Virus record (IMG/VR): IMGVR_UViG_3300021960_000496
Span: 1 to 24,088 of that record
Origin: a virus
Length of the DNA: 24,088 bases
Reading direction: 5' to 3' (one strand)
Made by a program: the position numbers and the translations under genes
Part shown: positions 1,866 through 18,897 of the stretch, one piece after another
How the letters are laid out: each line of letters begins with the position of its first letter
Position numbering within the stretch: position 1 is the first letter of the stretch
The notes under the pieces: model-generated
The model's database searches: none
What the model saw: the letters and a program-made list of their open reading frames with translations, nothing else
What the model was told of the DNA's origin: nothing

Positions 1866-3031
1866 TCTGCTAATTCCGGGTAGGTTTTTACGAAAGAAGT
1901 ATTGTTAAGTGAGTCTACTTCTGTATTATATTTTTTAAACTCTTTAAGTAAAATATCTTTATTACCAATATCTTTATTTAGATAGCTTAAAGTTTTATCA
2001 ATAGTTTCTAATTCACTAGTATTTAATGATATTTTTCTTTTTAAAATATCAAATTTTTTATTTATTTTATCTTTTATACTATCTGGTAACAATCGCATAT
2101 CAAAATAAGTAGGGGAAACTAAAATACTTAAATAAGTCGCAATATTTAAAGTTTTCATATGGGCTATCAATTCAGGTGTTGTCAAAATACTATATATTGA
2201 AGTAGTACAACTTAAAGTATTTACATATTTTTTAGTTTTTAGTAAGTTAGTCTCAAAAGTGTCCCAATTAAAGTTAGTTCTTCCATACTCAGAATGTTGT
2301 TTATAGCCATCTACGCTGGGCCACAAACTTACTTTATCAAAATGGCTCCATAGTTCAAAAACATCACAATTTTTATATTTGAGAGTACTCAAATTTGTAT
2401 TATAAGTTAATTCAACATCTGTCTTATTATTATCAATGAACCATTGCAAAAGCTTATAATGTCCATCCATTATAAGAGGCTCACCCCCTGCAAAATAAAA
2501 GTATTTAACAGAATGTTTAATTTTATCTAAATAAGTCCAAAAATCAGGAGAGTCTGTATAATAATCTTCTAACTGAGCGGGATAGTTTTTAAATTTAGAA
2601 ATTTTTAATGAATCTTTAAACCAAGTAGAAGAGGCATAGGGACCGCAGATTCTACATTTAAAGTTACATTTATTTCCAAATCTTATATCTAAATAAATAG
2701 GATGATTTACTATGGAACCATCACTTTTAGTATGTTTTTGTAGATTAGCAAACTTACCAAAACGTTTGTTTACTTGTTGCCTATTAGATTCCCCCCCTAA
2801 TTCTTCAAGATCATAACAAGCTTTTTTACACTCTTTTGGGTATTTATTAGATAAGAATTGTTTTCTAGCACTTTTATATTTATCATTATTAAAAATTGTA
2901 GAAATATCATCTTTATATGTTGCCATAATAGATTCAGGTTTATTATCTGTATCTGTATGACAGCATAAACGATATTTTCCGCTTACATCGCCGTACAAAT
3001 GCATCCAAGGTAAAATACAACCTTTTATCAT
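1847..3031 (-). CDS. Radical SAM protein, twitch/SPASM-like, function unknown
   Basis: A 394-residue protein with a clear radical SAM core. RFGNKCNFKCRIC gives Cys122, Cys126 and Cys129 (CX3CX2C) for the 4Fe-4S cluster that binds S-adenosylmethionine, and FAGGEPLI at about 180-187 is the SAM-binding GGEP motif. NTNLS (211-215) and PSVDGY (238-243) are further core strands. Extra cysteines near the N-terminus (CILPW, LCCHTD, CKKACYD) suggest a second cluster of the twitch/SPASM kind. This type of protein recurs in marine phage genomes without a proven substrate. The start overlaps the stop of the L-like gene as TAATG, and the end overlaps an NlpC/P60 gene, so it belongs to the tail-tip transcript. 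A peptide-modifying role is possible but only inferred. Confidence 0.9.
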   Translation of the reverse strand: MIKGCILPWMHLYGDVSGKYRLCCHTDTDNKPESIMATYKDDISTIFNNDKYKSARKQFLSNKYPKECKKACYDLEELGGESNRQQVNKRFGKFANLQKHTKSDGSIVNHPIYLDIRFGNKCNFKCRICGPYASSTWFKDSLKISKFKNYPAQLEDYYTDSPDFWTYLDKIKHSVKYFYFAGGEPLIMDGHYKLLQWFIDNNKTDVELTYNTNLSTLKYKNCDVFELWSHFDKVSLWPSVDGYKQHSEYGRTNFNWDTFETNLLKTKKYVNTLSCTTSIYSILTTPELIAHMKTLNIATYLSILVSPTYFDMRLLPDSIKDKINKKFDILKRKISLNTSELETIDKTLSYLNKDIGNKDILLKEFKKYNTEVDSLNNTSFVKTYPELAEWYEKI

Positions 3032-5517
3032 TACGCCCTTGGAATTGTTCTACCTGTAGCAGGGAATCCGCCGAAATGAATTTGATTATTTCTAATCGTG
3101 CAAGCTTCTAAACTTTTTGAACATATATCTCCGATTGCAGAAGCAGCTATCTCGTTGTCTGCACCGATAGGATTAGCATTACTTTTTAAAGATGTAGTTC
3201 CTGGAATAGGTAATTCTCCTGGTCCAGGATATTGACATTCTTCACCTTTATAAATCCATTGACAAGTATTTTTATAGTATTTTCTTTTTGGCACTACAAT
3301 TTTAAAATACTGCAACCACGAAACCAAACCAAAAGTAGCAGTAGTAATATTTAAAGATTCTAATTCATTAATTTTAAAAATATCTTCTACATAAGACTCA
3401 ACGTCTGCATCAACATTAACAATAAAAACTGAATCACCAATTGAAGTAGAAGAAGATAGTGGATTACTTAAGAATAATAGCCTATTTTCCTCAATAGATT
3501 GAATAGTAGCTTCTGTATCTCCTACAGAAGATTTTACATTGTCTCCTACTCGATAAGGCATAGCATTAACAACTTCAACTACATTTGATGTAATACTTTT
3601 GACACTACTATACTCTGGCCAATGATCTAAAAAGTTCATAAAAGTAGTCTTAATTTCTACTACGCCTCCTAGTAAATCTCTGGAATCTTGTTTAAGCTCC
3701 GTCCAACTTCCATTAACTAATGTTGTTTGATTTTTATCAAAAGATGCATTTGCTTTTCCGTAATAATTTACTATATCTGCAGAATACGATAAACCGTTAG
3801 CTCTTGCTCTTGTTAATGTGTCAAAAGCTTCATCTCCCACAGAACCTACATCAGCAGGATTTTTATTTACCGTGCGTGGATCAATTCCGTGAACAAGCTC
3901 ATTATTAACTAAAGCTACGGTAGAGTTAGAAGAATTATTACCTGATATAAAAGGATCTTCTACAAGAGAAGAAAGAATATTATCAATATTAAAAGCAGAA
4001 AGAGTTACTTCACTAATTTTACCATCAGAACTAGTATCAATAGAAGAAACATTTAAAGGATAAGGAGAATATGATTGTCCGTCATATGTAACATTATATT
4101 GTAAATCTGAAACATAATCCCCATTAATTTCTGCTATACGGAAAGGAAAGTTTAAAGGCCAAGCTAATCCAGCACCTTGCTCAGTAGGATTACCGTTTTC
4201 ATTAGGAGGATACCACTCTCCTGGATAATATATAGAAATAAGCCTAACAATAGGATTCTGTGTAAACGCATTCTTTTCTTTAATAAAAGGAGAGGGAACT
4301 AAAGATGAAATAGTTGTAGTAGCTGTAGTTTCTTCTCCCGTAAACACAGCAGGATTAAAAGGTTGAGATTGAATATTAGCTGTTTGTACCAACACCGCAA
4401 CATTTGTAGCAACTGCTAGTTCTACGTTTGTTTGATTTTCTCTTGTTAGTGTAACTGTTGCATAAGAGTTAGCCTGCGTTGTTTGTTCAGGAAAAGTATA
4501 AAAACCGTTATCGTCTTCAGTTGAAACATATTCTTGCTTACTAGAATATTTTAAATCGTCAATATGACCGTTAAAAGGATCTCCAGAAGAGAATAAGGTG
4601 CTTGATCTACCTATCTCTATAGGCCCACTAATAGTACTTTCTGCGTTACCTGTATAAGTAGTAGAAGCAACACGAGTATTTGCAACGTAAAGACTAAGAG
4701 TATTAGAAGTAGTATTATTGACAATAGCTACATGATAGAAAGATTCTGCATTTACATTACCACCATAAATTTCAATATTAGTAGCTGCATCACCATTACC
4801 CGCAGGATCTATATATACAAAGCCTACATTAGAATTAGCACCTACAAACTTAAGAGCATAGTAGTTTTCTGTACCAGCATCTACTCTAGAAAAAATAGTT
4901 GAGTTAGCAGTAGTACCAGAAGCCAGTCTCATTTGCACTTCAATAGTGCTATCTCGTTCTAGAAACTTAAAATCATCGTTGGAAGGAATAGAAAGATAAT
5001 CTCCAGCCCCATCAAGTAATAAAGAAGCAGTGCCAAACTTTTTCTGCGCAGTATCAAGTTGAGCATCTCCATTAAAAGTAATAGTTTGTTGTTTTATAGG
5101 AGAAGCATCAGTAGTAGTTGTAGCTTCATCAGCCCCGTTAAAATTTAAAAGAAGATTTGATTTAGAAAGATCTACTACGTACTCATCTGTATTAATTAAA
5201 ACATTACCAACAGCTATGTGTACTTCTGTATTAGAATTAGCAGTTATTCCTGTAAAGAATACATTATAAGAAGTAGTAGTATCATAATATGTTATATCTG
5301 ATACAATACGAGTAACTGCAGAATTAGAGGTAATTGTTTCTGTGGCGTAAAACTCTTGTCTGACATTATTAAGTTTTACTTTTAATAAGTTATTAGCTAA
5401 ATCAACATTAGCAATATAGGCTTCTGTACCGGTAGTAGTGCCTAAAATAACATTGCCACTTATAAAACCAGTAGCATCTGCAACAGTTAAAATATAATCA
5501 TAATTACGGGCAGTCAT
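3031..5517 (-). CDS. Lambda L-like minor tail protein with inserted LamG domain
   Basis: An 828-residue tail-tip protein. The C-terminal half resembles lambda gpL: TYDGQSYSPYPL (477-488), FNIDNILSSL, TCQWIYKGEECQYPGPG (751-767), DICSKSLEACTIRNN (797-811) and FGGFP (815-819). Four cysteines (752, 761, 799, 806) match the ligands that hold the 4Fe-4S cluster known for gpL relatives. Residues about 121-330 form a LamG/concanavalin-A-like domain (LLLNFNGAD, SLLLDGAGDYLSI, YHVAIV, EIGRSS, GHIDDLKYS). Residues about 640-705 look like a further small beta insertion absent from lambda. The protein is over three times the length of lambda gpL. AAGAGGT about 10 nt upstream supports the ATG. It probably sits at the tail tip; LamG could bind host glycans, but that is inference. 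Confidence 0.85.
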   Translation of the reverse strand: MTARNYDYILTVADATGFISGNVILGTTTGTEAYIANVDLANNLLKVKLNNVRQEFYATETITSNSAVTRIVSDITYYDTTTSYNVFFTGITANSNTEVHIAVGNVLINTDEYVVDLSKSNLLLNFNGADEATTTTDASPIKQQTITFNGDAQLDTAQKKFGTASLLLDGAGDYLSIPSNDDFKFLERDSTIEVQMRLASGTTANSTIFSRVDAGTENYYALKFVGANSNVGFVYIDPAGNGDAATNIEIYGGNVNAESFYHVAIVNNTTSNTLSLYVANTRVASTTYTGNAESTISGPIEIGRSSTLFSSGDPFNGHIDDLKYSSKQEYVSTEDDNGFYTFPEQTTQANSYATVTLTRENQTNVELAVATNVAVLVQTANIQSQPFNPAVFTGEETTATTTISSLVPSPFIKEKNAFTQNPIVRLISIYYPGEWYPPNENGNPTEQGAGLAWPLNFPFRIAEINGDYVSDLQYNVTYDGQSYSPYPLNVSSIDTSSDGKISEVTLSAFNIDNILSSLVEDPFISGNNSSNSTVALVNNELVHGIDPRTVNKNPADVGSVGDEAFDTLTRARANGLSYSADIVNYYGKANASFDKNQTTLVNGSWTELKQDSRDLLGGVVEIKTTFMNFLDHWPEYSSVKSITSNVVEVVNAMPYRVGDNVKSSVGDTEATIQSIEENRLLFLSNPLSSSTSIGDSVFIVNVDADVESYVEDIFKINELESLNITTATFGLVSWLQYFKIVVPKRKYYKNTCQWIYKGEECQYPGPGELPIPGTTSLKSNANPIGADNEIAASAIGDICSKSLEACTIRNNQIHFGGFPATGRTIPRA
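4811..4839 (-). repeat. 29-bp perfect repeat inside LamG coding region (copy 1)
   Basis: Exactly the same 29 bases recur at 6308-6336, in the same orientation and reading frame, inside the LamG domain of the M-like gene. They encode the shared peptide ANSNVGFVYI. A second shared block of 23 bases lies at 5059-5081 and 6553-6575. The flanking sequence is diverged, so this marks homology between the two LamG modules. Confidence 0.9.
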
Positions 5518-7170
5518 TTAATCAAAGACCTCTTGAAGATTAAAAGAAACAGTGTAAAAGTTTTGAGTAAGATTAGCTCCCGCAGATAAAACTTGTTCTA
5601 TTTGCAAAGGACCAGAAAATCTTGAAGTAATTGTACCAGACTCATTCAAATGTGACAAGTCAAATGTGAAAGCTTCGTGTTCTCCGCTTCGAGCATTGTA
5701 AAAGTTTTCTATCGCAGTTTTTTCAACACCAGTAATATTTGTATAAGATAAAGAATACTGCCGTTTAGATCTACGTGATTTTAAACGACGTTTTTCATAA
5801 CCAGATTGAGAAGTAAAAGTAGCTACGTCAAACTGTTTAGAAGTACTAAATCCTTTATCTGGTTTTCTATCTGCCATAGAAGAAAAACGATCTAGAGAGG
5901 TAATTTCTGCGTCAAATACACGAATCGAAAGAGTCTCGCCGTCTTCGTTAACACCTTTGTCAATACCAGAACCAAGAGGAGCACCGCCTATAACTGTAGG
6001 AGCTGTATTTGCTGGCTCAATTCCGTTTCCATAGTAACGACGAGCCCGAGATATACGCAGAGCGTCTATATGACCATTTAGCGGTTCTCCGGTAGTGTTA
6101 AAAGAACCAGTCCTACCAATTTCTGTAGCTCCTCCCATAGTTTGTCCCGCTACGTTAGCTCCAAGATAGCCATTTGCTACTAATACGTTATTAACATACA
6201 ACATAACATTATTAGTAGAATCATCCCGAGATACCGCTACGTGATAAGATATAGCTCCATTTACATTACCGCCATATAGCTCTATATTAGCATCATTTGT
6301 TTGATCAATATATACAAAGCCTACATTAGAATTAGCTCCTACTACGCGGAGAGAATAATAACGATTAATAGATTCAAATTTAGATAAGATAGAGGCATTA
6401 GTAGTAACATCAGCAGCAACATTAAAATATGTCTCAATAGTCATATCATCCGTAAGAAAAGTAAAGTCAGTAGAAGCAGCAATAGATAAGTAATCTCCTG
6501 TACCATCAAGTTTTAAAGAAGAATCTCCAAATACTTTATCTGCCGTTGCTAATTGAGCATCTCCATTAAAAGTAACTGTATGGGCGCTATCGCTTGCATC
6601 TGTAGTAGTAGTAGCTCCGTTTGTTCCATCAAAATTTAGTAGTAGCTTTGTAGCGGTATTATCACCAATATCAATACCCGCAGTTCCTAAAGTAATTGAT
6701 GGAAAAGTAAAAGCACTAGAACGTTGTAGTACGCCTCCTAAAAATACCATAATTTCTGTTGCAGAAGAAACATTAACACCTGAAGGGATAGCAAACGTTT
6801 CTGTGTTAGCATTAACTACATAGGTATTACTGTCTACGGTAGTAGCTGTTGTATTAGAATAGTCTACGCTTCTTACAGAAGGAAAAGATCTTGTTAAACG
6901 AAAACGCTCGGGAAGAGAAATAGTTTTAACAATAAGTTCTGTAGCGTTAGGAGCAGTCACAAAGTTAATTGATTGTCCTGCGTTAGCTAAGTCATATGTA
7001 GAGGTTTGTTGGAGCGCTCCATCTAAGAAAGCTGTTACTTCACCTTTATGAGCTACAGTAGTAGGTAAGTTAAAATAAGTTCTTGATGCTCCTGTACTAG
7101 AATAAGTAACTTCAGCTACGACAGGAAAAGCTGTTACTGGAGCAGTCGCATCACTAGGGTAAGTAGCCAT
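5518..7170 (-). CDS. Lambda M-like minor tail protein with LamG domain
   Basis: A 550-residue protein placed directly after the tape measure gene, the position of lambda M. The C-terminal domain (about 444-550) has the M/DUF2460-like pattern: RRSKRQYSLSYTNIT, then IENFYNARSGEHEAFTFDL, and a final beta hairpin. The N-terminal part holds two copies of a short beta module with FLDGALQQTSTYDL (48-61) and FLGGVLQRSSAFTF (143-156), common in phage tail proteins. Residues about 174-385 are a LamG domain (KLLLNFDGTN, SLKLDGTGDYLSI, EIGRTGSF, LNGHIDALRISRARRYY) closely related to the one in the L-like protein. Start is ATG, overlapping the tape measure stop as TAATG. It likely forms the distal tail end; LamG binding is inferred. 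Confidence 0.8.
   Translation of the reverse strand: MATYPSDATAPVTAFPVVAEVTYSSTGASRTYFNLPTTVAHKGEVTAFLDGALQQTSTYDLANAGQSINFVTAPNATELIVKTISLPERFRLTRSFPSVRSVDYSNTTATTVDSNTYVVNANTETFAIPSGVNVSSATEIMVFLGGVLQRSSAFTFPSITLGTAGIDIGDNTATKLLLNFDGTNGATTTTDASDSAHTVTFNGDAQLATADKVFGDSSLKLDGTGDYLSIAASTDFTFLTDDMTIETYFNVAADVTTNASILSKFESINRYYSLRVVGANSNVGFVYIDQTNDANIELYGGNVNGAISYHVAVSRDDSTNNVMLYVNNVLVANGYLGANVAGQTMGGATEIGRTGSFNTTGEPLNGHIDALRISRARRYYGNGIEPANTAPTVIGGAPLGSGIDKGVNEDGETLSIRVFDAEITSLDRFSSMADRKPDKGFSTSKQFDVATFTSQSGYEKRRLKSRRSKRQYSLSYTNITGVEKTAIENFYNARSGEHEAFTFDLSHLNESGTITSRFSGPLQIEQVLSAGANLTQNFYTVSFNLQEVFD
6308..6336 (-). repeat. 29-bp perfect repeat inside LamG coding region (copy 2)
   Basis: Identical to 4811-4839. 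It lies at the equivalent point of the LamG fold in the M-like protein. With the 23-base match at 6553-6575 (partner 5059-5081) it indicates a duplication or recombination between adjacent tail genes rather than two independent acquisitions. Confidence 0.9.
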
Positions 7171-10100
7171 TATCTATCACCTCTCATAGATTTTCTAATC
7201 GGACCATTATTACGTAAGTCACGAGTTACAATGTCAATAACAAACTTTTCGCCATCAAAGCGAGGTTGTTTAGCTTCAGCATCTTGTGGAGTACCTTTAT
7301 TTTCGATGTTAACCACCACATTGCCTCCTGGCATTGCTCCAGTACCATTCATTGCATTTAGGGCGGGTCCTCCAATAGCTTTTGCCATTGGTTTGCGAAT
7401 GACGAATTCGCCAGGCTCTAGTAATGCCGGGACACGGTCCCGCATCATCCCACCTGCTGCCATCTGTCTAACAGGACCACCAGTAGCTGCAGGCAAAAAG
7501 ACGCTCATTACCGATTTACCAATAGTTCCCAAAAGTCCAAGTACACCGCTTCCTTCTTGTCCACCACCACCAAAACTACCGAGAAGAGACTTACCTATAC
7601 CAAACAAAGAAGAGCCAAAATCAGTTAATCCACCAGCAACAGTACCAAACAAAGATGTTAAAGGATTAGCACTTAGCTCCATTTGTTGGAAAGAGCTTCT
7701 CAAAGTATTTGTAGATTGTTGTAATGCTGTATTTGCTTCTGTTAGGTCAGTTCCAGAACTTACAGCACCTTCAAATAATCCTTCATCTATTCCATCTTCT
7801 TCCATAGATTGACCAACTCCATTAGGAAATAAAGATGAAAGAGGATTACTTGGTGTTGCTCCTGGACCAGACGGAAGCTTTTGTGATAGAGTACCATCTG
7901 CAGACCTAACGTAAAGTGGGTTGCGTTGTGTTCCATCAGGTTTTCCAGTTAGTCCTGGGAAAAAGCTTTGTAATTGTTCTGCTAAAAAGTCTTTGAGCGG
8001 GTTTACAATAAATTGTTCGGTTATAGAAGCTTGAATATCATTAACAATATTTAAAATAAAGTCTTTAAAACCTTCTTTAAAGTTTTGTACCGTTAGTGTT
8101 CCTTCACGAATCGCGGTAAATAAATCATTTAAGCTCTTTTTCGCGTTTTCTCCAAAACTTTCAAGTCCTGCGATAGCCACTTTTAATCCTCTATTTGAAG
8201 AAATCTCTGCTGCTTTTTTTAACTGATCTAAAGCATCCGTGGCTTTCTCAATTTCTAAATTAGCTGTAGCTTGAGCGTTATTTAAAGCCGTTTGATTTTC
8301 TACTAACTGACTTTTTAATTCATTACTTTTAATTTCTCTTTCTAATCTCTTTGCTTCTTTAACCTCAGTAGAATCTAATAAGTCAACTTGTTTTTGTAGT
8401 TGTTTTCTTAAATATCCCACAGCTAAATCAAAACTTTTAATATCCAGTACTAAGGGCAAATCTTTGCCTATTTGGTTTTTTACGTCGGGAATAGCTGCTG
8501 CTACACGATCTTTTCTTGATGTTGTGTCAACTTGTCCTCTTGCAGCCTCTAACGCTATTTGTCTGTCAACTCTATCTTCTGCTAATACTCTAGCTAAAGC
8601 GCCTATAAAATCATTAAATAGATCTTTTTCTTTTAATATTATATCAAAGCGTTCTTTTAAGCTCTGTCTTTCAATACGTAAAGCACTAATCTGCGAATCA
8701 ACTCTAGCCTTGGCAATTTCTTTTTGAGTTTGTAAAATAGAATCCTCTTTTTTGGCAATTTCAGCATTAGCTTGTATTTGCTTTTCAATTAAAGTTTTTT
8801 GAGCAGCAGCATCTTCTCTAGCTCTGCGCATAGCTTCTTGTTGGTCTGCTACAATACGTTCAAATTCTTTTGTAGCAATTTTTATTTCAAAATCTCTTTT
8901 CTGCCCTGCGGTAAATATACCACCAGCATTATCAAGAGCAGTTTGAAAAGACCTATCTCTTGCATCAGCAATAAATCTACTTAGCTCTTTAGAAGCATCA
9001 GCTTGGTTTCTAATTTGTTCTGTTTGTTTTTTTAATAACTCAAAGCGAGATTTTTCAAGACTAATACGTTGCTTTTCTAAGGCTAACCCTTGTTGTAGCC
9101 CTGTTAACTCGTTTTGTTTTTCTAATTCTTTAGTTTGGTTCATAAGAGCCTCAGTTCTTTTTTCTAGCTCTTTATTAAACTTTTTAACAGCCTCTATGTT
9201 TTTAACTATACTTCCCACAATGGCTTGCTCTGCTTTAAGGGCTGCTTGTGCAGCATATTCTTGTGTCTGGCTTAATTCTTCTCCCTTACGTTGTAATTCT
9301 AATGAGTCTTTTCCTGCACTATATAGTTCTTTTGCCTGTGCTAAAGAATTAACTCTTTGCTGATTTTGATCAGTTATTAAATTACCTTGAGTATCAAACA
9401 AATCTGTCAATCTTTGAGAGGCTGTTATCTCTGAACTAAAATTTTTCTCTATTAGTTTTCTTTGGTTTTCTAAAGCCGATAATTGCTCTACAAAAGCATC
9501 TGTTACTTTTTCTGCATTTTTTGCTCTCGAATATTCCGCATACTCAAGTAAAGTTAAATTTTCTAATCCTTTTTTCTCTAAATCATTAATACGCTTTCTA
9601 ATCTCTGCTTGATCTCTTTGAGCTTTTTCTAAACTAGAAGTTCCATCTTGTAACTCAGATACAAACTGAAGTTGTCTCGTATAAATTCCTGCTAAAGTAT
9701 TTCCTGCGGTAGTAGCCGTATCAAAAGTTTGTGCTATACCATCAGGAGAACCAAAAACAGATTCAAATATATTACCCTTTCCTTTAGGAGTAAATTTTGC
9801 TATTGAACCCTCAATCTCAACAGCTGCTACAGCATAAATTGCGGCAGAACCTTGTCCAATTTCTTTAGCTATAGCGCCAATAGTTTCTGCTCCTACCACA
9901 CTGTCTCTAACGGCTTTTTCAGTAGCGTTCTTTATAGCCATTGCAAGTGGGTTGTTTCGACTATACTGTTCTACGTTTTTAGCAGCTTTCGCTCCAAAAA
10001 TCTTTTCAAACACGGCTTCAACAGCAGTATTTGTTGCCGTATCTAAATTAGCCCCTGCAGCAACATCATTTACAGATGATTCTACTACTTTAAACAACAC

Positions 10101-11786
10101 CCTTTTAAGTTTATCTTCTGTTAGTTTTGTATTGATGCCCTCAAAGAAGTTTAAGTCTTTAAAAATATCTACATTTATATTATTTAACTCATTACTTCCT
10201 TTTACAATAGATTGAATAATTCCAGAGACACCATCTTTTACTGTTTTTTCTGTTTCTTTACCGAACACACCACCAAAAACTCTTTGATTTATAGAAGTTA
10301 AAATATCGTTTAATTTAGTAGAAAAACCAAAAATCTCAGCTAAACCAGATAAAACGCCTCCCCCGATGAGTAAAAATACGGAAAGTCTACTAAAAGCCAT
10401 CCCTAACCCTCTAACCGTACTTGTTAATTTTTTAAATGTACCCTCTAATTTAATAAAGGCAGGGCCTATCTTTGCGGCTAAACCACCTGCTTGAGTTAAT
10501 CTAATAGTTAGATCTCTTACTCGTGGATTAAGTTGTCTAAGCGCCGAAGTATTTGAGATATATTCTTTTTGAAGCGCTTTAGAAGATTTAGCAAAACCAC
10601 CATTAGCTCTTATTTGTTCAAGTATTTCTTTACGTCTTGCTTTGAGGACTAATTGTTCATCTTTTAGTCCTTTTTGAAGCCTAATTGCACTTGCTGCATC
10701 AAGCGAACCTTCTCTCGCCCGTTTAACTAAAGGATTAATAGTTTCTCTGTCTCTTACTCTAGATAAAGAAAAACCTTTAGTACTAAACTTATCGCCTAAC
10801 CCCTCTAAAGCTGCTGCTTGCGCTTTTGCTGATGGACCTATTTGTGATAATCGTCCTAAAATACCATCGACAACGTTACCTACTCCTCCAAAAAACGATT
10901 TTATACCTCCACCAAGAGCAGTTAATCCTACTCCAAAAACTGTTTTAGCTATTACACCAAATAACGTAAGCTGTGCTAAAATATTCTCTGTAAAAAACTC
11001 TGCTAAAGGCACTAAAGTATCAGCTAGAAAACTACCAATTTTAGTAGCTAAATCAAGAAAACTAGCTGCAAGCTTTTCAAAAGCTTCTGCCGTAGTTGGC
11101 ACAGAAGTATTTATGTTACCAAATTTTCTAGAACCTTCTTCAATAGCAGCATTTACAAAAGCTTGTCGTCTTTCAAATGCTGTTAAACTTTGAACTGATT
11201 TTCCTGTTTTTAATGCATACGCCTCAAGAGCCGGTTCTAATCTAGTAAAAATACCAAGTTCATCTAAGAGTTCCGGCTCTAATTTTGCTGTACCACGAGA
11301 AAGTCTAGTGAGCGAATCAGTAAGATTTCTTCCTAATGCTCTAGAAGCTTTTAAAGATACTTCACCTAATTTTTGAATTTGGTCAATATTAAAACCTGCA
11401 GATAAAGAAATATTAGCTGTAGTTGCTGCTTCTGATAAAGTTAATTGTTGGTTAGTAATTTCTTTTAAAGTATTAATAACTGTTGTCCCAGAAGTGCCTA
11501 CAGAAGCTGCTAGAGTATTAGTGCCGGCAATAAGTTGTTCAAACTGAGCAGCTCGTTGAAGAGCAGCAAAAGCTTGTTGTAAGGCAAATACGTTAGCGGC
11601 AGCTCCTGCATATACAGCTACTAATCCTCCCAAACCGTTTGCTTGAGCAGCAAATTGTCTACTTGCGGAAACTCCAGCAGAGGTTTGACGGGTTACTGCC
11701 TTAGTAACTTGTTCAGTATCTTTAGCAACTTTACCAGCGCCTTGAGTTGTAAATTGTGTTCTTACTTCATTAATAGTAGTTGCCAA
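7170..11786 (-). CDS. Tape measure protein (lambda H-like)
   Basis: The longest gene in the window, 1538 residues, directly after the tail chaperone pair. It is rich in Ala, Gln, Glu, Lys and Leu with long predicted coiled-coil stretches (roughly 700-1130), as expected for the protein that spans the tail lumen and sets tail length. Hydrophobic glycine-containing segments occur near 260-305 and 465-490, which in this family may insert in the host membrane at DNA entry. Near the C-terminus AAGGMMRDRVPALLEPGEFV is the signature seen at the end of many siphovirus tape measures. The start codon is TTG at 11786, with GAGG a few bases upstream, directly after the chaperone stop. Proteolytic trimming of the C-terminus is known in lambda but cannot be seen here. 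Confidence 0.95.
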   Translation of the reverse strand: MATTINEVRTQFTTQGAGKVAKDTEQVTKAVTRQTSAGVSASRQFAAQANGLGGLVAVYAGAAANVFALQQAFAALQRAAQFEQLIAGTNTLAASVGTSGTTVINTLKEITNQQLTLSEAATTANISLSAGFNIDQIQKLGEVSLKASRALGRNLTDSLTRLSRGTAKLEPELLDELGIFTRLEPALEAYALKTGKSVQSLTAFERRQAFVNAAIEEGSRKFGNINTSVPTTAEAFEKLAASFLDLATKIGSFLADTLVPLAEFFTENILAQLTLFGVIAKTVFGVGLTALGGGIKSFFGGVGNVVDGILGRLSQIGPSAKAQAAALEGLGDKFSTKGFSLSRVRDRETINPLVKRAREGSLDAASAIRLQKGLKDEQLVLKARRKEILEQIRANGGFAKSSKALQKEYISNTSALRQLNPRVRDLTIRLTQAGGLAAKIGPAFIKLEGTFKKLTSTVRGLGMAFSRLSVFLLIGGGVLSGLAEIFGFSTKLNDILTSINQRVFGGVFGKETEKTVKDGVSGIIQSIVKGSNELNNINVDIFKDLNFFEGINTKLTEDKLKRVLFKVVESSVNDVAAGANLDTATNTAVEAVFEKIFGAKAAKNVEQYSRNNPLAMAIKNATEKAVRDSVVGAETIGAIAKEIGQGSAAIYAVAAVEIEGSIAKFTPKGKGNIFESVFGSPDGIAQTFDTATTAGNTLAGIYTRQLQFVSELQDGTSSLEKAQRDQAEIRKRINDLEKKGLENLTLLEYAEYSRAKNAEKVTDAFVEQLSALENQRKLIEKNFSSEITASQRLTDLFDTQGNLITDQNQQRVNSLAQAKELYSAGKDSLELQRKGEELSQTQEYAAQAALKAEQAIVGSIVKNIEAVKKFNKELEKRTEALMNQTKELEKQNELTGLQQGLALEKQRISLEKSRFELLKKQTEQIRNQADASKELSRFIADARDRSFQTALDNAGGIFTAGQKRDFEIKIATKEFERIVADQQEAMRRAREDAAAQKTLIEKQIQANAEIAKKEDSILQTQKEIAKARVDSQISALRIERQSLKERFDIILKEKDLFNDFIGALARVLAEDRVDRQIALEAARGQVDTTSRKDRVAAAIPDVKNQIGKDLPLVLDIKSFDLAVGYLRKQLQKQVDLLDSTEVKEAKRLEREIKSNELKSQLVENQTALNNAQATANLEIEKATDALDQLKKAAEISSNRGLKVAIAGLESFGENAKKSLNDLFTAIREGTLTVQNFKEGFKDFILNIVNDIQASITEQFIVNPLKDFLAEQLQSFFPGLTGKPDGTQRNPLYVRSADGTLSQKLPSGPGATPSNPLSSLFPNGVGQSMEEDGIDEGLFEGAVSSGTDLTEANTALQQSTNTLRSSFQQMELSANPLTSLFGTVAGGLTDFGSSLFGIGKSLLGSFGGGGQEGSGVLGLLGTIGKSVMSVFLPAATGGPVRQMAAGGMMRDRVPALLEPGEFVIRKPMAKAIGGPALNAMNGTGAMPGGNVVVNIENKGTPQDAEAKQPRFDGEKFVIDIVTRDLRNNGPIRKSMRGDR

Positions 11787-12155
11787 CTATCTTCCTCTCT
11801 TAGCCTTTGATAAAGACTCTTGCTGCTTAGCTTTTTGAGCATAATATTTTCCAGCTTCTGCTTCGGCTACTTTAAGTAATTCAAATACTGCTCGTCGATC
11901 ATCAATTTCATAAATTTCCATAATCGACATTAATCCGCTATAATCTTTTCCCATCCAAGTACCAGACATACCCTCCCAGTTATCTGGGAGAGCGTTGAAA
12001 AGAATTAACGCCTGTTGAACATTAAGAGAAAGTTGGGATGGGTCTTTAGGCATTTGCTCTTCATCAGGTTCCCACCCCATCTGTTCACACATTTCTAAAT
12101 ATTGATCTAAGTTCATACCTCCTGCAAAATAAGCGTTGCGAAGGTATTCAGTTAG
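11787..12155 (-). CDS. Tail assembly chaperone T-domain (GT part, made by -1 frameshift)
   Basis: This frame is open from 12155 and encodes 122 residues beginning LTEYLRNAYFAGGMNLDQYL. It lies in the -1 frame relative to the upstream chaperone and joins it exactly at the slippery heptamer A AAA AAC, giving a fused product of about 265 residues, close to lambda gpGT. In lambda the T part binds the tube protein while G coats the tape measure. A free start at the ATG at 12116 is unlikely: the AGGAGG ends only one base before it, and it is paired in the predicted stem-loop. The sequence has an acidic MCEQMGWEPDEEQMPKDPSQ segment and a basic end (KAKRGR), which is common for T domains. The stop abuts the tape measure start. 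Confidence 0.85.
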   Translation of the reverse strand, partial: LTEYLRNAYFAGGMNLDQYLEMCEQMGWEPDEEQMPKDPSQLSLNVQQALILFNALPDNWEGMSGTWMGKDYSGLMSIMEIYEIDDRRAVFELLKVAEAEAGKYYAQKAKQQESLSKAKRGR

Positions 12156-12177
12156 TTTTTTACGTCTTCCTCTTGTT
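12115..12177 (-). promoter_or_regulatory. Programmed -1 ribosomal frameshift signal
   Basis: Slippery heptamer A AAA AAC at 12161-12155 is in the correct phase (codons GTA AAA AAC TAA), one codon before the zero-frame stop. Upstream, AGAGGA about 8 nt before it can act as an internal Shine-Dalgarno, as in dnaX. After a 7-nt spacer a stem forms from ATACCT (12147-12142) with AGGTAT (12120-12115), extended by an inner GCAA/TTGC pairing. Shifting -1 enters the open frame of the T domain. All three known elements are visible; the efficiency is not. Confidence 0.88.
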
Positions 12178-12583
12178 TCTTCTTTGAAAATTGCTCAAAA
12201 TCATTCATACAATCTGTGATGAATTGATCAAAAATAGTGGAATTTTTAAGAAGATCCAACGCATCATCTTCAGTATAATCAACATTTTCATCACCGTCCA
12301 GTGAAGAAATGTCAACAGGAAGAAGGACGGGCAAATGTTTTACTTTAAGTCCTCTCCAGCCTTTGATAGCACGTTCTGCATAGGCTTCTAAGAACTTATC
12401 ATTATCCACATCTTCTTCACGTTGTCGAGTGCGTTTGTTGAATTTGTAAGTAAGTGCCCGATTACGAATCTTCATTAGATCATCACGGGTAAGATAGACT
12501 AGATGGATTTCAAAGCCATCAATTTCTGGAAACTCGACCCAAGTCTCTGTTTCCTTTGCAATTAGATTTCCGATTTTACTCAT
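12152..12583 (-). CDS. Tail assembly chaperone G-like protein
   Basis: A 143-residue acidic protein between the tail tube and tape measure genes, the position of lambda G (140 residues). It contains beta-rich text (WVEFPEIDGFEIHLVYLTRDDLMKIR, split by charged residues) and an acidic helical end (CMNDFEQFSKKKQEEDVKN). No catalytic motif is seen. The assignment rests on position, size, acidity and the -1 frameshift signal at its end that yields the GT fusion. The ATG at 12583 has TGAGGGGA about 7 nt upstream, and that site lies just outside a 13-bp inverted repeat that could affect its access. The protein should coat the tape measure during tail assembly and be absent from mature virions. Confidence 0.87.
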   Translation of the reverse strand: MSKIGNLIAKETETWVEFPEIDGFEIHLVYLTRDDLMKIRNRALTYKFNKRTRQREEDVDNDKFLEAYAERAIKGWRGLKVKHLPVLLPVDISSLDGDENVDYTEDDALDLLKNSTIFDQFITDCMNDFEQFSKKKQEEDVKN

Positions 12584-12633
12584 ATAATTTTCCCCTCATA
12601 AGGTGAGTGCCCACCAGTTAATTTGCTTTTCAT
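12580..12633 (-). CDS. Possible 17-codon leader peptide before the chaperone gene
   Basis: ATG at 12633 opens a 17-codon frame (MKSKLTGGHSPYEGKII) that ends at a TGA overlapping the chaperone ATG. It runs through one arm of the inverted repeat and through the chaperone Shine-Dalgarno, so its translation could open the hairpin and couple to the chaperone. It has no good Shine-Dalgarno of its own, and such a short frame can occur by chance. Confidence 0.2.
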   Translation of the reverse strand: MKSKLTGGHSPYEGKII

Positions 12634-12674
12634 TAGGTGAGGGGAACCTATAAATTGCAAGCTGGTGGGCACTC
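12605..12674 (-). promoter_or_regulatory. 13-bp perfect inverted repeat, putative RNA hairpin between tube and chaperone genes
   Basis: GAGTGCCCACCAG at 12605-12617 is perfectly complementary to CTGGTGGGCACTC at 12662-12674, with a 44-nt loop. There is no T-run after it, so it is not a standard terminator. The loop holds TGAGGGGAA (plus strand, 12638-12646), whose complement occurs at 12590-12598 (the chaperone Shine-Dalgarno) and at 12691-12699. Two alternative 9-bp pairings with the flanks are therefore possible. It may process or stabilise the tube mRNA or limit chaperone translation. Confidence 0.65.
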
Positions 12675-12710
12675 TCTGTAAAAATGTTAATTCCCCTCAG
12701 AATTTATTTA

Positions 12711-13991
12711 TTAAGCTACAGATTTAGTAGCAAAAATCTTAACTTCTCCACCGTCGCCCTTAGTAGCTGTAGGCTCTTGTGCTACGAAGTTAACACTCAT
12801 TGAAATAACATCATCTGTTGCAAGTTGTGGGAACTCAAACTGACAAGCATCAAGTTGGAAAGCAACTTGTGGGTCACCAGTAGAAGCACCGCCAATGATA
12901 AGGTTTGCATTAGATGTTTGTGCAGAAGAAGTTCTGCTGTCATCAGAAATATTACGTAGGAACTGAGCGCTTTCAGTGTCGCCAGCACGTAGATACATAG
13001 TAGCAGAACCAGTAACAGCACGAGTGCCAGTAAACTGACCAATAGGCGCATTAAGGGCTGAAAGTTCTTCTGGTGTTAGATAGGTAATATTGTTGTTGTA
13101 GTCAAAGCTTAGTGCAGTAACTGGGAATACATACTTAACGTCTGAACCAGCTGCGCTCGGCTTATGATGGAACTCAATTTGGCTAAGACGATTCTTAATG
13201 AATGAGTTAGTGCCTGTTGAGGCTGCAACGTTAGCTGTATCGAATGGATGATAAGAATGAGCAACACCCATTACAAGGTTAGAGTTAGCAGTAACAGAGT
13301 TTCCGTCATTAAGAATACCACCAAAAGCAGCAATAGCATTGTTACGAACATCGCCTGTAAGCTCTTTTAGTGTTGTACCAAAACCAGCCCAAGTAGTTGT
13401 TGCAATTTCTTCAATACCAGCATCTACAGTAGCTTGATTAACTGTTGCATTTGATACCTGATAAACAACGTTATCTAGTTTGAAGTATAAATGATTTTCT
13501 ACTGCGGTAGAAAAGTTAGAACGAGAACTATGAGAGCCTGTTGCAGCAGCAACATTAGTAGTTACTAGTTTACCGCCAGTAGACCAAACAGACTGATAAT
13601 CTGTACCATCAGAAGCAGCGGTATTAGAAACTAGAGATTGCCACAAGAACCAGTCAGCAACCGGCATTACGTTACCGCTTTGGTTAGTTTTTGCGTCTGA
13701 ACCATCAGCGGCGGCACCGGTTTCTACACCAGTAGGACGCATATAAACTTGGAAGTTCCAGTCAACAGGATTAATAGCGGTATTAAAACGTTGCTGAGAT
13801 CTATCTGGAGTATTGCCAGATTCAAGAGAGGTGATGTCCTGAGTAGCAGAGGATGAAGTAACAGCAAAACCAGCAAGAACCTCAAGCTTCCAAGTATTGG
13901 AAGGGGTTATGTTTGCTGCAGCAGCGCCGTTAATAATATCAACTGTTGAAAAGAACACCTCAGAGTTTCTCTGTAGATTAAGAGATGCCAT
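12711..13991 (-). CDS. Major tail tube protein
   Basis: A 426-residue protein beginning MASLNLQRNSEVFFSTVDI, rich in Ala, Ser, Thr and Asn with a beta-rich pattern and ending VAQEPTATKGDGGEVKIFATKSVA. Position between the tail terminator and the chaperone pair is that of the tube protein (lambda V). A segment such as KYVFPVTALSFDYNNNITYL followed by SMSVNFVAQEP fits the tube fold. It is longer than lambda V (246 residues), so an extra surface domain is likely. It has a strong Shine-Dalgarno (AAGGAG, about 9 nt before the ATG) and better codon choice than its neighbours, consistent with a high-copy protein. No sequence motif alone proves the role; context is the main evidence. Confidence 0.82.
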   Translation of the reverse strand: MASLNLQRNSEVFFSTVDIINGAAAANITPSNTWKLEVLAGFAVTSSSATQDITSLESGNTPDRSQQRFNTAINPVDWNFQVYMRPTGVETGAAADGSDAKTNQSGNVMPVADWFLWQSLVSNTAASDGTDYQSVWSTGGKLVTTNVAAATGSHSSRSNFSTAVENHLYFKLDNVVYQVSNATVNQATVDAGIEEIATTTWAGFGTTLKELTGDVRNNAIAAFGGILNDGNSVTANSNLVMGVAHSYHPFDTANVAASTGTNSFIKNRLSQIEFHHKPSAAGSDVKYVFPVTALSFDYNNNITYLTPEELSALNAPIGQFTGTRAVTGSATMYLRAGDTESAQFLRNISDDSRTSSAQTSNANLIIGGASTGDPQVAFQLDACQFEFPQLATDDVISMSVNFVAQEPTATKGDGGEVKIFATKSVA

Positions 13992-14003
13992 AATTATTTC
14001 TCC

Positions 14004-14453
14004 TTATTGTAAAGTATAAAATATTTCTAATTCAATTTCGCCGAGACCATAAGGAGTAACTAACCCTTCATCTGTAGATATGTTTGATATAGTTATATCT
14101 AAAATACCTCTGTTAGAGTTATCTCCCAGGCTGTAAATAACATGTTCAACATCCTGTAGGAGGTTATCTACCTGGCTCTGTGCGTCATCTTCTCCGTAAA
14201 TGTATATTCTTATGGTAGCGTCTAAAGTTGCAGTTGTCAAATTTTGAGAATTAAAATCTCTATTTTCGGTTCCCGCTGATACATAAATGCTGGGAAAATC
14301 GTTTACCTCATCTAAAAATTTCAATTTACGAAAAACATTGTTAAATACGTTAGTGTTATAGGTGTAGGAGGCATCAAAACCTGACACCGCTCCATCAATT
14401 TCTTTTAGTTGAGTAACTATAAATTCTATAATTTCTTTTCTACGTGATGCCAT
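14004..14453 (-). CDS. Tail terminator / tail completion protein
   Basis: A 149-residue protein directly upstream of the tube gene, where lambda U-type terminators usually sit. The pattern FPSIYVSAGTENRDF, then ATIRIYIYGEDDAQSQVDNL, DVEHVIYSL, and a final STDEGLVTPYGLGEIELEIF matches the small alpha/beta proteins that cap the finished tail tube and join it to the head. The size is right (lambda U is 131 residues). Its ATG lies one base after the stop of the neck protein gene, suggesting translational coupling. The assignment is from pattern and position. Confidence 0.75.
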   Translation of the reverse strand: MASRRKEIIEFIVTQLKEIDGAVSGFDASYTYNTNVFNNVFRKLKFLDEVNDFPSIYVSAGTENRDFNSQNLTTATLDATIRIYIYGEDDAQSQVDNLLQDVEHVIYSLGDNSNRGILDITISNISTDEGLVTPYGLGEIELEIFYTLQ

Positions 14454-14454
14454 C

Positions 14455-15825
14455 TTATGCTCTTAAAATATTAAATTGCCTACCATATAATTGTTGAGTT
14501 ACTTCTCTAATAGAAGACTCAATTAAATCACTAGGAGATCTGGTAGGCTCGTGAACTTGGTATACGGGATCATAAAAAAACTTAATTACACTTGTTTTAT
14601 AATTTAAAAGAGCTATCTGTACACTACGAGCAAAACGACCAGACCGATAAGTTAAAACATCATCAGAAAGAGGGGGACCTCTTCGCGGACCTTTTGGCAT
14701 CCTCTGCACTACAGCTCTTTGTACTAAAGCAGTCATTTGCACTTTTGATATAAATCTTCCAGGTCTTTTCTCGTCACCGCTTTGTGCGATATCTATATTT
14801 ACATTTTGCGTTATTGTTCCTGGTTTTCTACTCTTTATAATTGTTTTATATACTAAAGGTGTATTGCTACCTTTTGCAAACTCTTCTGCCAATGAAATAA
14901 CAGATTCAAGATAATCAGTAGGAGATAATTTACCTGCGGCATTAAACTCTTTAAGCGCATAAGTAATAAATCTTCCTGAAAAATTCTTACCTAAAGAAGC
15001 ATGAAACTTTTCTGTTACATTTTTTGCTTTTTCACTAAAAATTTTCATAGACGCATCACTTAATTTAACGTCTATTTGTATACTAACACGACCAGATTTA
15101 GAATCTCTACTTTGTCTAGCAGAAAGTGTTGCAAATTTTTTAAAATTACCACTTATGTTCATAGCCCTTGCAGCACCCGGCAACACCTTAATAACAGGCT
15201 TACCTCCGTGTTCTGCGTCTAAATAGTCTATTAATGCAAAGTTTTCAAACTTTTGTTCACACTGTTTGATTAAGGATTCTTTTAAAGATTGGTCAGTATT
15301 AATCCACTTATGAAGAGTAGAAGAAGGTATTTGAGATATCTGAGTATCTGTAAAAGTCTCTACTTCTTTTCCTTTTCTTATAACCTTGTCTCTATCACCT
15401 ACACCAAAAAAAGATTGAAAAGAAGATTCTAAATCGCTATTTCGGGTAAGCTGTCTTCCAGTAACAGTTGTTCCAAAATCTTTTGTAGTTTTTTGTTTTA
15501 GTTCTAGAAATACTTCAGCACCTCCGGCTATACTTGTTCTTTCTAGTTCTACCCCTAAAACTTTTAAAAAACTTGCAGAACTTCCTTGCATATCAGGAGC
15601 AGCACTATTTTTTTCAAACGCAGCAGAACCTGTAGGAGCTTTGAAAGGGCCTCTAGTAGAAATAAAATCAGACATTAGTCTAAGAGCCGCTGATCTGGCT
15701 TTTTTATTTCCCCTTTTACCTTTTCTAATCGCTTCTCTTCGTTTTTTAATAAAAGTTTTTACTTTTATAGGCTTACTGCCATCATAAATAGTAGTGTCTA
15801 AAGTTATTCCAACTTTTTCAGCCAT
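14455..15825 (-). CDS. Probable neck / head-tail joining protein, 456 residues
   Basis: I do not recognise the full protein. The N-terminus is very basic (FIKKRREAIRKGKRGNKKAR at about 25-44). The last 100 residues contain YRSGRFARSVQIALL, then VIKFFYDPVYQVHEPTRSP and SIREVTQQLYGRQFNI, a pattern I associate with small neck or tail-completion proteins of phages. The middle (about 60-350) has no motif I can name and makes it three times the length of HK97 gp10-type proteins. The position between the gp6-like connector and the tail terminator supports a neck role. The start overlaps the connector stop as TAATG. A DNA-contacting or stopper function is possible but unproven. Confidence 0.5.
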   Translation of the reverse strand: MAEKVGITLDTTIYDGSKPIKVKTFIKKRREAIRKGKRGNKKARSAALRLMSDFISTRGPFKAPTGSAAFEKNSAAPDMQGSSASFLKVLGVELERTSIAGGAEVFLELKQKTTKDFGTTVTGRQLTRNSDLESSFQSFFGVGDRDKVIRKGKEVETFTDTQISQIPSSTLHKWINTDQSLKESLIKQCEQKFENFALIDYLDAEHGGKPVIKVLPGAARAMNISGNFKKFATLSARQSRDSKSGRVSIQIDVKLSDASMKIFSEKAKNVTEKFHASLGKNFSGRFITYALKEFNAAGKLSPTDYLESVISLAEEFAKGSNTPLVYKTIIKSRKPGTITQNVNIDIAQSGDEKRPGRFISKVQMTALVQRAVVQRMPKGPRRGPPLSDDVLTYRSGRFARSVQIALLNYKTSVIKFFYDPVYQVHEPTRSPSDLIESSIREVTQQLYGRQFNILRA

Positions 15826-17186
15826 TAGTCAATCACCCTATACAAATCTAGTATTCTACGAATATGTGGGGGCAAATTACCACTTAAATTATATCTATCA
15901 CCTCTCTCACCCTCAAAGCTAAATCCCTTTTTATCTTGGTCTTGTTTATAAATTAGCTTAATATAGTCAAGAGTAGCCAGTTGTAAATCATAAGGAACAC
16001 TTCCTGATTCATAACCTCCACGATATTCTACCTTAATACCATTAGGATAAGGCATAAACTTAGGAGGACCGCCTAAAGTAAGTGCTGGGTAGTTATTTCT
16101 AACACTAGGATAGTTGCCAAGTACGCCTTGATCTCCTACATCACGAGTAATTCTACCTGTATCACGACTAAACATATACTCATTAGGTGCTGCGTGAACG
16201 TCTTTTGCTTCTGTATCGTCTTGTTTACCGTCAAAATGCACTAAAAATACAGTATCTTCATCTGGACGAAAGCGTTTTGTAGGTGGAGTAAAGTTTGCGC
16301 TATACCTTACTTTGGTAGAAACACGAATTTCATCAATATAACCATCAAAATCGTTAGTTTTAGTGCCAAAACTATTACGACCAATCTCAACATTAGTTGT
16401 AAACGTTAAATTTGCGCCCGAAACCGCTGAAGAATTTGATATTTCGTGACCATTATAAAACAAGGCTAACGTTTCATTTGCATAATCTCGTGACATTGCA
16501 ACGTGTGCCCACTGCTTTTTCTCAAATTGTTGTGCCATTACATTATCATTTCTGCCTTCAATAGTAGTTGCAGTGCCAGAAATATTAGCTTCAAAAGCTA
16601 ATCCTTTGTTTTTTTCTACTCTAAACTCCATATAATTAGAAGCATCCGTATTAATTGCAAAAATTGCATTACTTTCTAAAGAGTCTGTGTCAATTCTTAT
16701 AAAACTTTCAATAGTAAAATCTTGTTCTTCTAATTTTAGCTGAGAAGGAACGGCTCCAGCGATAATCATATCGCCAGAACCGTCTAATTTAAGGGAACTT
16801 TTACCAAATTTCTTTGCTTTTTCTGTGATATGCGCACCACCGTAGAAAGTAAATGATACAGCATCACTTTTATTTGGAATCGGAGTGCCTATAGTAGAAG
16901 GGTCGTCTAATACATCATAGTCTACTCCATTAAATTCTGAAACTTGGTATACATTATTAAGAGGAAGAGCGCCTACATAAACAGCACTTACACCACCGTC
17001 AAACACTTCTACATAATCATTAGCCAAAACAGGTTGACCAATGTAGTGCTCAATAGCTGCTGTGGCATAATTAATTACATTAGAGATTCGTGCATCATTA
17101 GTGGTGCTACTAATAGATAAGTAGTCCTTAACTTGTGCTAAAGTTACAAACGGAAATCTACCTAAATCTTCCTCAAATCTATCCAT
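15825..17186 (-). CDS. gp6-like head-tail connector with inserted LamG domain
   Basis: A 453-residue protein. Residues 10-60 (RFPFVTLAQVKDYLSI, then DARISNVINYATAAIEHYIG) are the helical start of HK97 gp6-type connectors, and the C-terminal part (VEYRGGYESGSVPYDLQLAT, then LPPHIRRILDLYRV) is their typical end. Between a hairpin strand ending EFNGVDYDVL and its partner YMFSRDTGRITRD lies a LamG domain of about 225 residues (106-332: SLKLDGSGDM, WAHVAMSRDY, EIGRNSFG, FDGYIDEIRVS). The insertion is in a loop, so the connector fold can remain intact. Connectors form a ring under the portal, so the LamG domains should project at the neck. An AGAAAGGT Shine-Dalgarno precedes the ATG. The family assignment is good; the function of the insert is inferred. 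Confidence 0.83.
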   Translation of the reverse strand: MDRFEEDLGRFPFVTLAQVKDYLSISSTTNDARISNVINYATAAIEHYIGQPVLANDYVEVFDGGVSAVYVGALPLNNVYQVSEFNGVDYDVLDDPSTIGTPIPNKSDAVSFTFYGGAHITEKAKKFGKSSLKLDGSGDMIIAGAVPSQLKLEEQDFTIESFIRIDTDSLESNAIFAINTDASNYMEFRVEKNKGLAFEANISGTATTIEGRNDNVMAQQFEKKQWAHVAMSRDYANETLALFYNGHEISNSSAVSGANLTFTTNVEIGRNSFGTKTNDFDGYIDEIRVSTKVRYSANFTPPTKRFRPDEDTVFLVHFDGKQDDTEAKDVHAAPNEYMFSRDTGRITRDVGDQGVLGNYPSVRNNYPALTLGGPPKFMPYPNGIKVEYRGGYESGSVPYDLQLATLDYIKLIYKQDQDKKGFSFEGERGDRYNLSGNLPPHIRRILDLYRVID

Positions 17187-17502: not shown

Positions 17503-18897
17503 TTAACCAGTAATTACTGTGCAAGCATAGCTATACTTAGAGGAATCTAGTGCAGCACTTGAGTTAGTTGTAAGAGCCTTGAAGTCGAAACGAGTGCTCA
17601 TGTACATAGCAGTGACCTGCTGACGTGGCTCGTATTCGCTCTCAATCTCAATGGCACGGCGTTCGGCAATCATGAAGCCGGGCTTATAGACTAGAACACC
17701 AATGTGACGGCTTGAACCACCAACGACATCCAAGAATTCAGAAATCTGAATTGGAATACCGTAGACAGCACCGACTGAACCTGTTAGATAAGTGGCATTT
17801 GGACCGAACTTATCAACGGTACGGAAGTCAGAGGTTGTAACAAGGTTGTTATAACCTTCAATTGATGTTAGGTATACAAGCTGGTCGCCAAGTTGTAGAC
17901 CATACTTACCAATAGTGCTACGAGCAGAGGCGATATCTGTTGGATCAACCTTGTCGTTTGCGCCACCAGTGGCGACTTCGAGAGAAGCATCACCGGTTAG
18001 ATTGGTAAGACCCTCAATGACTGACGCATAACCAGTACCAGCAGTAATTGCGTTGGTTGGTGATGCAGTGAAGCCAGTTAGGGCACCTGTGCCGCGAAGA
18101 ATTGACTTGTCAATAGCACGGGCTAGACGACGAGTTGCGGCTGCGCGAAGGAAGTCGAGTAGAGGAAGAACGGTGTCTTCTTCTTCATCCTTGGCTAGGT
18201 GTGTGGTTGCCATGAACTTATGTGGAGTAAAGGTCACGGCTGAGATTGACTGTTGATTAGAAGTTGGGACGTTTGACGAGTCGCCAATGCCTGTGGCAAA
18301 AGTGCCAGAAGCAAATTGTGCAACATCACCGTCTGAATCTTCATCAGCAACTGGAACGCGGAAGTTACGAGCGTCAACTGCAATGCGGTTGAACATCTGA
18401 GCAACTACGAGCTGTTGTTCCATCTCGGTATAAATATTGCTTGAGAAATTTGAAAGGAACTGATCAACTGTTGTGATCGCCTTCATCTTTGAACCAAGCT
18501 TAGTATCAAATGGGTCACGCTTATTCATGCACTTAGCAAGTAGATATGCGTTTGCCATATCCTTCTCTGAGAACTGTTGCGTATTACGCTGATTCTCTTG
18601 GTAAACCATTTTGCTGCGAGAAAGAGCAGCAACCTCGTCCTTGAACTTAGAAATTTGAGCCTTAAGCTCTTCTAGTTCTTCACTTTCGCGAGGTGTGTAT
18701 TCAGACTTTTCTTTAGCGTCTGACTCCTTAATAATTGCTTCGCCAGTCTTTTCGACTAGCTTGGCAACTTCGGGTTCAGACACTTGTACTGAAGCAGGCT
18801 TCTCTTCGGAAACTGCTTCGGCTTTCTTAATCTCCTCAACAGTAGCTTCGCTACCTGCCTTTGTAAGATCAAGGGTATCTACGACCTGTTCTGCCAT
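17503..18897 (-). CDS. Major capsid protein (HK97 fold), made from an internal start
   Basis: In-frame ATG at 18897 inside the protease-capsid polyprotein; AAAAAGGAG lies 9 nt upstream, the strongest Shine-Dalgarno in this part of the window. The product is 464 residues. The first 95 or so are charged and coiled-coil-like (ESEELEELKAQISKFKDEVA), as in the delta/scaffold domain of HK97-type capsid proteins that the protease removes. The rest has the HK97 pattern: NIYTEMEQQLVVAQMFNRIA, VTFTPHKFMATTHLAKDEEE, LDFLRAAATRRLARAIDKSI, GTGALTGF, and a last part with VYGIPIQISEF, VYKPGFMIAERR and MYMSTRFDFKAL. From about 18880 on, base composition becomes more GC-rich than the protease part, consistent with high expression. 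Capsid identity is firm; separate translation is inferred. Confidence 0.8.
   Translation of the reverse strand: MAEQVVDTLDLTKAGSEATVEEIKKAEAVSEEKPASVQVSEPEVAKLVEKTGEAIIKESDAKEKSEYTPRESEELEELKAQISKFKDEVAALSRSKMVYQENQRNTQQFSEKDMANAYLLAKCMNKRDPFDTKLGSKMKAITTVDQFLSNFSSNIYTEMEQQLVVAQMFNRIAVDARNFRVPVADEDSDGDVAQFASGTFATGIGDSSNVPTSNQQSISAVTFTPHKFMATTHLAKDEEEDTVLPLLDFLRAAATRRLARAIDKSILRGTGALTGFTASPTNAITAGTGYASVIEGLTNLTGDASLEVATGGANDKVDPTDIASARSTIGKYGLQLGDQLVYLTSIEGYNNLVTTSDFRTVDKFGPNATYLTGSVGAVYGIPIQISEFLDVVGGSSRHIGVLVYKPGFMIAERRAIEIESEYEPRQQVTAMYMSTRFDFKALTTNSSAALDSSKYSYACTVITG

Follow-up and report, generated by a model that had tools for sequence, protein, structure and literature searches.

Introduction

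Several described systems carry accessory domains on the rings of their virions, each of which resembles our locus in some respects and differs in others. In RcGTA, oligosaccharide-binding sites have been proposed on the tail, six in the distal tail proteins and three in the hub, and the attachment domain of the adaptor lies outside the portal, touching the capsid (PMC7296036). RcGTA is like our window (the whole 24-kb virus record analysed here) in having an outward insertion domain on its distal tail protein (Rcc01695, DUF2460), an inserted domain in its hub (Rcc01696) and a four-Cys Fe-S site in that hub. However, its domains have OB-like or other folds, not LamG, and in the window the tail-end LamG domains sit in an N-terminal accretion on the DUF2460 protein and, in the hub, close to the N-terminus. 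The adaptor of roseophage R4C bears an Ig-like attachment domain that was judged structural, and the phage's distal-tail insertion domain was proposed to serve in adsorption (PMC10276861). R4C shares with the window an accessory beta-sandwich at the adaptor periphery and proposed carbohydrate-binding insertions in distal tail and hub, but its Ig-like domain is N-terminal on a different adaptor fold, whereas the window has a LamG nested inside a T5-type adaptor.

The adaptor of T5/DT57C (T5.148; 8hqo, 9ilp) has the same helical domain and beta-barrel attachment domain as the window's connector, but its barrel has ~65 residues and no LamG. In lactococcal phages of the 936 group, one type of virion bears carbohydrate-binding modules at several levels, with presence varying among relatives (all three decorations occur in only 1 of 113 phages; PMC6669499), although these phages use other folds and carriers, e.g., the neck passage structure, not the adaptor ring. 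Ig-like domains are a promiscuous beta-sandwich found on various phage structural proteins (Fraser 2006, 2007, cited in PMC10276861); they are usually terminal additions, while those in the window are nested insertions with a LamG fold. Thus neither multi-level carbohydrate-binding modules, which have been tested in part in phages of the 936 group, nor promiscuous Ig-like domains are new.

Genome context and relatives

Every virion gene in the window is on the minus strand, and the source is an uncultured, probably marine phage. The genes are ordered as follows: terminase, portal, protease-capsid fusion, connector, a 456-aa gene of unknown family, tail terminator, major tail protein, two small tail genes, tape measure, M-like, L-like, radical SAM, two NlpC-type genes, a JAMM-like gene and a further tail-tip gene. 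The portal shares ~35% identity with portals of T5-like phages, which the N-terminus of the tape measure matches as well. Searches of viral contigs found many syntenic relatives, those compared here being uncultured fragments. GTDB genome contigs, searched for a host assignment, gave 0 matches, as did a tblastn search of named phages with a LamG-free connector query, so no cultured phage connector is detectable this way.

Other features of these genomes deserve mention. At 17503-20394 (-), the prohead protease and major capsid protein are fused in a single 963-aa frame, as they also are in relatives. The 456-aa gene between connector and terminator (14455-15825, -) is fast-evolving except in its C-terminal ~100 aa and had no match in Pfam, PHROG or NCBIfam. 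A 212-aa protein of no known family (22035-22673, -) is conserved in relatives between terminase and an HNH-like gene, and by eye it looks glycosyltransferase-like. Two relatives encode proteins with BLASTP similarity to the tail terminator upstream of terminase (L091:14092-14897 and L100:802-2229), and the first of these also has three tandem stand-alone LamG proteins of 224-240 aa just upstream of terminase (L091:7876-9982, -).

Carrier proteins

Three virion proteins of the window carry an insert of interest. The features of the connector are:

15825..17186 (-), head-tail connector/adaptor (T5 HCP-like, gp6-like), 453 aa, with LamG insert (PF05135, PF24163, PDB 8hqo/9ilp)
16875..17030 (-), attachment-domain part before the insert, aa 53-104, equivalent to T5 HCP DII
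16194..16874 (-), connector LamG, aa ~105-331 (Pfam, BLASTP, AlphaFold2, Foldseek; in 77/77 connectors)
16194..16256 (-), strand TVFLVHFDG, aa ~311-331, at the C end of the connector LamG
16023..16193 (-), attachment-domain part after the insert, aa 332-388

Two Pfam families flank the insert: PF05135 (aa 15-53, E 1.9e-5) and PF24163 (head completion protein; aa 379-451, E 3.4e-13). The earlier reading that the insert splits a loop of a gp6-like fold is supported. The protein also matches the T5/DT57C head completion protein (PDB 8hqo/9ilp, E 0.001), and hhalign aligns its residues 384-452 to aa 104-170 of T5.148 (E 7.5e-6). The order portal, protease/capsid, connector, terminator, tail tube fits a T5-type head completion protein, and a neck position is supported by PMC11313276 and PMC10713586. 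By homology, the connector would form a dodecameric ring under the portal.

The body of the connector was modelled poorly (pLDDT < 50 at aa 50-109 and 328-396), so the orientation of the insert rests on homology to T5. Because the LamG (~105-331) lies within the stretch (~53-388) that corresponds to the T5 attachment domain, an outward or head-proximal placement is likely and a luminal one unlikely.

The features of the distal tail and hub proteins are:

5518..7170 (-), M-like/DUF2460 distal tail protein, 550 aa (DUF2460 sub-threshold, TIGR02217)
6013..6657 (-), M-like LamG, aa 172-386 (BLASTP, AlphaFold2, Foldseek; empty site in L088)
5521..5946 (-), M-like DUF2460 core, aa 409-550 (the whole gene in L219 is the core alone)
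3031..5517 (-), L-like hub protein (PF05100), 828 aa, with four invariant gpL-type cysteines
4393..5319 (-), insert in the L-like slot, aa ~67-375 (missing in most relatives)
4522..5163 (-), L-like LamG, aa 119-332 (Pfam, BLASTP)

The M-like protein matches DUF2460 at 26.1 bits (E 6.7e-6), below the curated cut-off of 30.4, and TIGR02217 at E 0.029; its gene sits between tape measure and gpL, which is consistent with a DUF2460 distal tail protein. The L-like protein matches PF05100 at 83.1 bits (cut-off 25), and its C752, C761, C799 and C806, invariant in alignment A3, correspond to the cysteine quartet known from the Fe-S site of gpL-type proteins. All three carriers are as first read: connector by PF05135 and PF24163, L-like by PF05100 and M-like by its sub-threshold DUF2460 C-terminus.

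Directly after the gpL-like Fe-S hub gene lies a Twitch-domain radical SAM gene (1847-3031, -; NF033640, E 2e-105), which has the same position in every syntenic relative with sequence covering that site. One may ask whether its product takes part in the maturation of Fe-S sites or tail proteins.

LamG domain identity and fold

The earlier note placed LamG/ConA-like domains in the connector, M-like and L-like proteins, and they are there, at ranges within a few residues of those it gave (~105-331, ~172-386 and ~119-332, respectively). Pfam Laminin_G_3 matches the connector (aa 147-294, E 2.3e-19, 70.4 bits) and the L-like protein (aa 169-324, E 1.5e-13, 51.6 bits), both above the curated cut-off of 27.6 bits; in the same search the M-like insert had no Laminin_G_3 match. 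With BLASTP, the M-like insert is 44.5% identical to the L-like insert (E 1e-56) and 30% identical to the connector insert (E 6e-15), and the connector and L-like inserts are 31% identical (E 8e-19). All three are also matched by PHROG families of structural proteins that contain LamG stretches. These similarities indicate that the inserts are true homologues, and the Pfam match and 44% identity to M-like identify the L-like insert as LamG.

AlphaFold2 was run on 45 M-like and 30 connector sequences. The M-like model has a mean pLDDT of 80.6 (~80-91 in the insert) and the connector insert has a pLDDT of 70-88, with a beta sandwich predicted in each. Foldseek matched these to domain 4 of AbnA (TMt 0.61 for the connector insert, 0.72 for the M-like insert) and to other LamG/ConA-like structures, namely laminin LG5 (0.61), CBM40 (0.64) and a neurexin LNS domain (0.61). 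The connector and M-like inserts are thus LamG jelly rolls as modelled. Some top Foldseek matches were to toxin binding domains, which we took only as generic ConA-like fold neighbours. The proposal of one fold at neck, distal tail and tail tip holds up, by BLASTP throughout, by Pfam for connector and L-like and by AlphaFold2/Foldseek for connector and M-like. No ligand site was recognisable in the LamG domains, and their conserved positions look mostly structural.

Presence and absence among relatives

The M-like gene occurs in three states with clean junctions: core only (139 aa), without LamG (317 aa) and with LamG (527-550 aa). Of 92 distinct M-like proteins longer than 250 aa, 91 contain LamG; among those sampled via the L-like gene, 52 of 53 do. 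In the L088 lineage the 317-aa protein shows a cleanly empty site (GIDIDDD/GTPLDD), and that of L219 is the 139-aa DUF2460 core only. At the slot near aa 66 of the L-like protein, 78/99 are empty, 3/99 (the window's clade only) have LamG and 18/99 have other inserts, ten of them E1_FCCH-type by Pfam and eight of other lengths. Relatives with empty sites thus give independent LamG boundaries for both proteins. One slot insert (L167:2324-4207) has what we judged by eye to be a dockerin-like motif (GDFDESGTIRADDALDAAKYG).

The connector is different in that all 77 distinct full-length sequences (441-453 aa) match the LamG profile. This includes loci found with a LamG-free query, which was used to look for LamG-free connectors among close relatives and found none.

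These counts bear on two alternative explanations. The first is that LamG cassettes enter tolerant surface loops selfishly or neutrally and persist without benefit. Unrelated inserts do share the L slot, and LamG is promiscuous in phage proteins (it occurs, for example, in giant structural proteins of cyanophages), but retention in 77/77 connectors and 91/93 M-like proteins is hard to reconcile with a neutral passenger, and we regard this explanation as very improbable. The second is that all three LamGs stabilise weak inter-ring interfaces and bind no ligand. Evidence for it comes from the neck, where LamG is fixed in the connector and where the R4C authors argue that a neck-proximal Ig-like domain has a local-stability role (PMC10276861). 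Since M-like and L-like cores exist without LamG in otherwise syntenic phages, however, the domain is not needed for tip ring assembly.

LamG also diverges faster than the core that carries it, which again counts against a purely stabilising role: pairwise identity is 47% for the M-like LamG vs 56% and 70% for its flanks, and 60% vs 72-83% in the connector, although faster divergence can alternatively mean relaxed constraint. Overall, we judge stabilisation by all three copies to be rather unlikely.

Separate histories of the copies

The LamG tree unites all connector copies in one clade (support 100/99) and joins the window's L copy to the M copy of the same genome (96/91); the cyanophage outgroup branch is long, leaving deeper relations unsure. 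At the DNA level, the window's M and L LamGs have patches up to 83% identical over 58 nt. We rejected recent gene conversion between them, given 52% amino acid identity and near-random codon agreement (57.5% vs 50.1% expected); the pair looks instead like an old duplication within the lineage, with better-conserved patches.

The connector copy may also differ in strand register. Its TVFLVHFDG strand is the last of the domain, while the counterpart in the M and L copies (TKLLLNFDG) is the first strand, and a cyanophage S-M1 protein has the motif at the same position as the connector. In a pairwise test of register, 0.3% of shuffles scored as high for connector vs M and 3.7% for connector vs L. 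A PSSM built from many M sequences did not single out the connector's TVFLVHFDG site, and a search with a doubled profile aligned nothing beyond the common core. The strand order suggests a shifted, likely circularly permuted, register, or a different excision register.

The earlier note had envisaged a display system in which one beta-sandwich decorates several rings, and a single coordinated system of this kind is not supported: the copies differ in history and do not co-occur, as seen in the LamG counts, the tree and two relatives. The M copy is missing from two lineages and the L copy is limited to the window's clade; in L088 and L219 the connector LamG remains and neither tip protein has one. 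The same facts weigh against one virion-wide glycan array, in which 12 + 6 + 3 sites would bind the same class of host or particle glycan, allowing the phage to stick to and slide through polysaccharide. That all three copies share one fold would suit such an array, as would lactococcal phages of the 936 group, whose neck, tail tube and distal tail bear carbohydrate-binding modules, one at the neck and one on the tail having been shown to bind (PMC6669499), and RcGTA, which has been proposed to cross the capsule using many sites (PMC7296036). But phages that lack both tip copies still have the neck copy, and neck copies make up a separate, distant clade, possibly in another strand register. 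We therefore find the array improbable.

Discussion

Our preferred explanation, towards which we lean without holding it firmly, is that LamG was recruited by at least two routes: as a swappable adhesion module at the tail end and as a fixed attachment domain at the neck, where its role is most likely bracing. At the tail end, LamG and other beta domains would first have been grafted onto the N-terminus of the DUF2460 distal-tail protein (six copies expected). In the window's lineage, LamG would then have been copied into the insertion slot of the gpL-like hub (three copies expected). Tip LamGs would most likely bind host surface glycans weakly and multivalently, prior to irreversible attachment. 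At the neck, LamG would have grown out of a hairpin loop in the beta barrel by which the adaptor attaches to the portal, making a twelve-domain ring outside the neck whose most likely function is to brace adaptor, portal and capsid.

We propose glycan modules at the tip and bracing at the neck because the window's three inserts occupy the same kinds of ring as the RcGTA and R4C domains. The copy numbers likewise follow T5, RcGTA and R4C, and we infer the exposure, ligands, geometry and function of the domains. The earlier note was neutral between glycan binding and stabilisation; by analogy with these systems, we think adhesion the likelier role at the tip, and attachment/stabilisation the likelier one at the neck. 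A different possibility for the neck, which we consider quite unlikely, is that the twelve connector LamGs form a glycan-binding lectin skirt at the head-tail junction (for host capsule or organic particles), so that an adaptor, which ordinarily serves as a gasket alone, would also act as an adhesin. If so, 12 connector, six distal-tail and three hub copies would give 21 LamG sites per virion.

We found no description of an uncultured lineage in which a T5-type adaptor has a fixed, nested LamG and in which, in addition, a hub slot has LamG in one clade and other inserts elsewhere. The open-access papers searched yielded no LamG in any adaptor, which is not proof of absence.

On our preferred two-route reading, one lectin-type fold would be used in two modes on each particle: fixed in the head-tail adaptor and swappable on the distal-tail and hub proteins. 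The L-like loop, with its empty sites and alternative inserts, amounts to a natural experiment on which additions a siphophage tail tip will tolerate and select. For uncultured phages without a close cultured relative, these proteins help to annotate contigs whose LamG matches would otherwise be called 'virion structural protein'.
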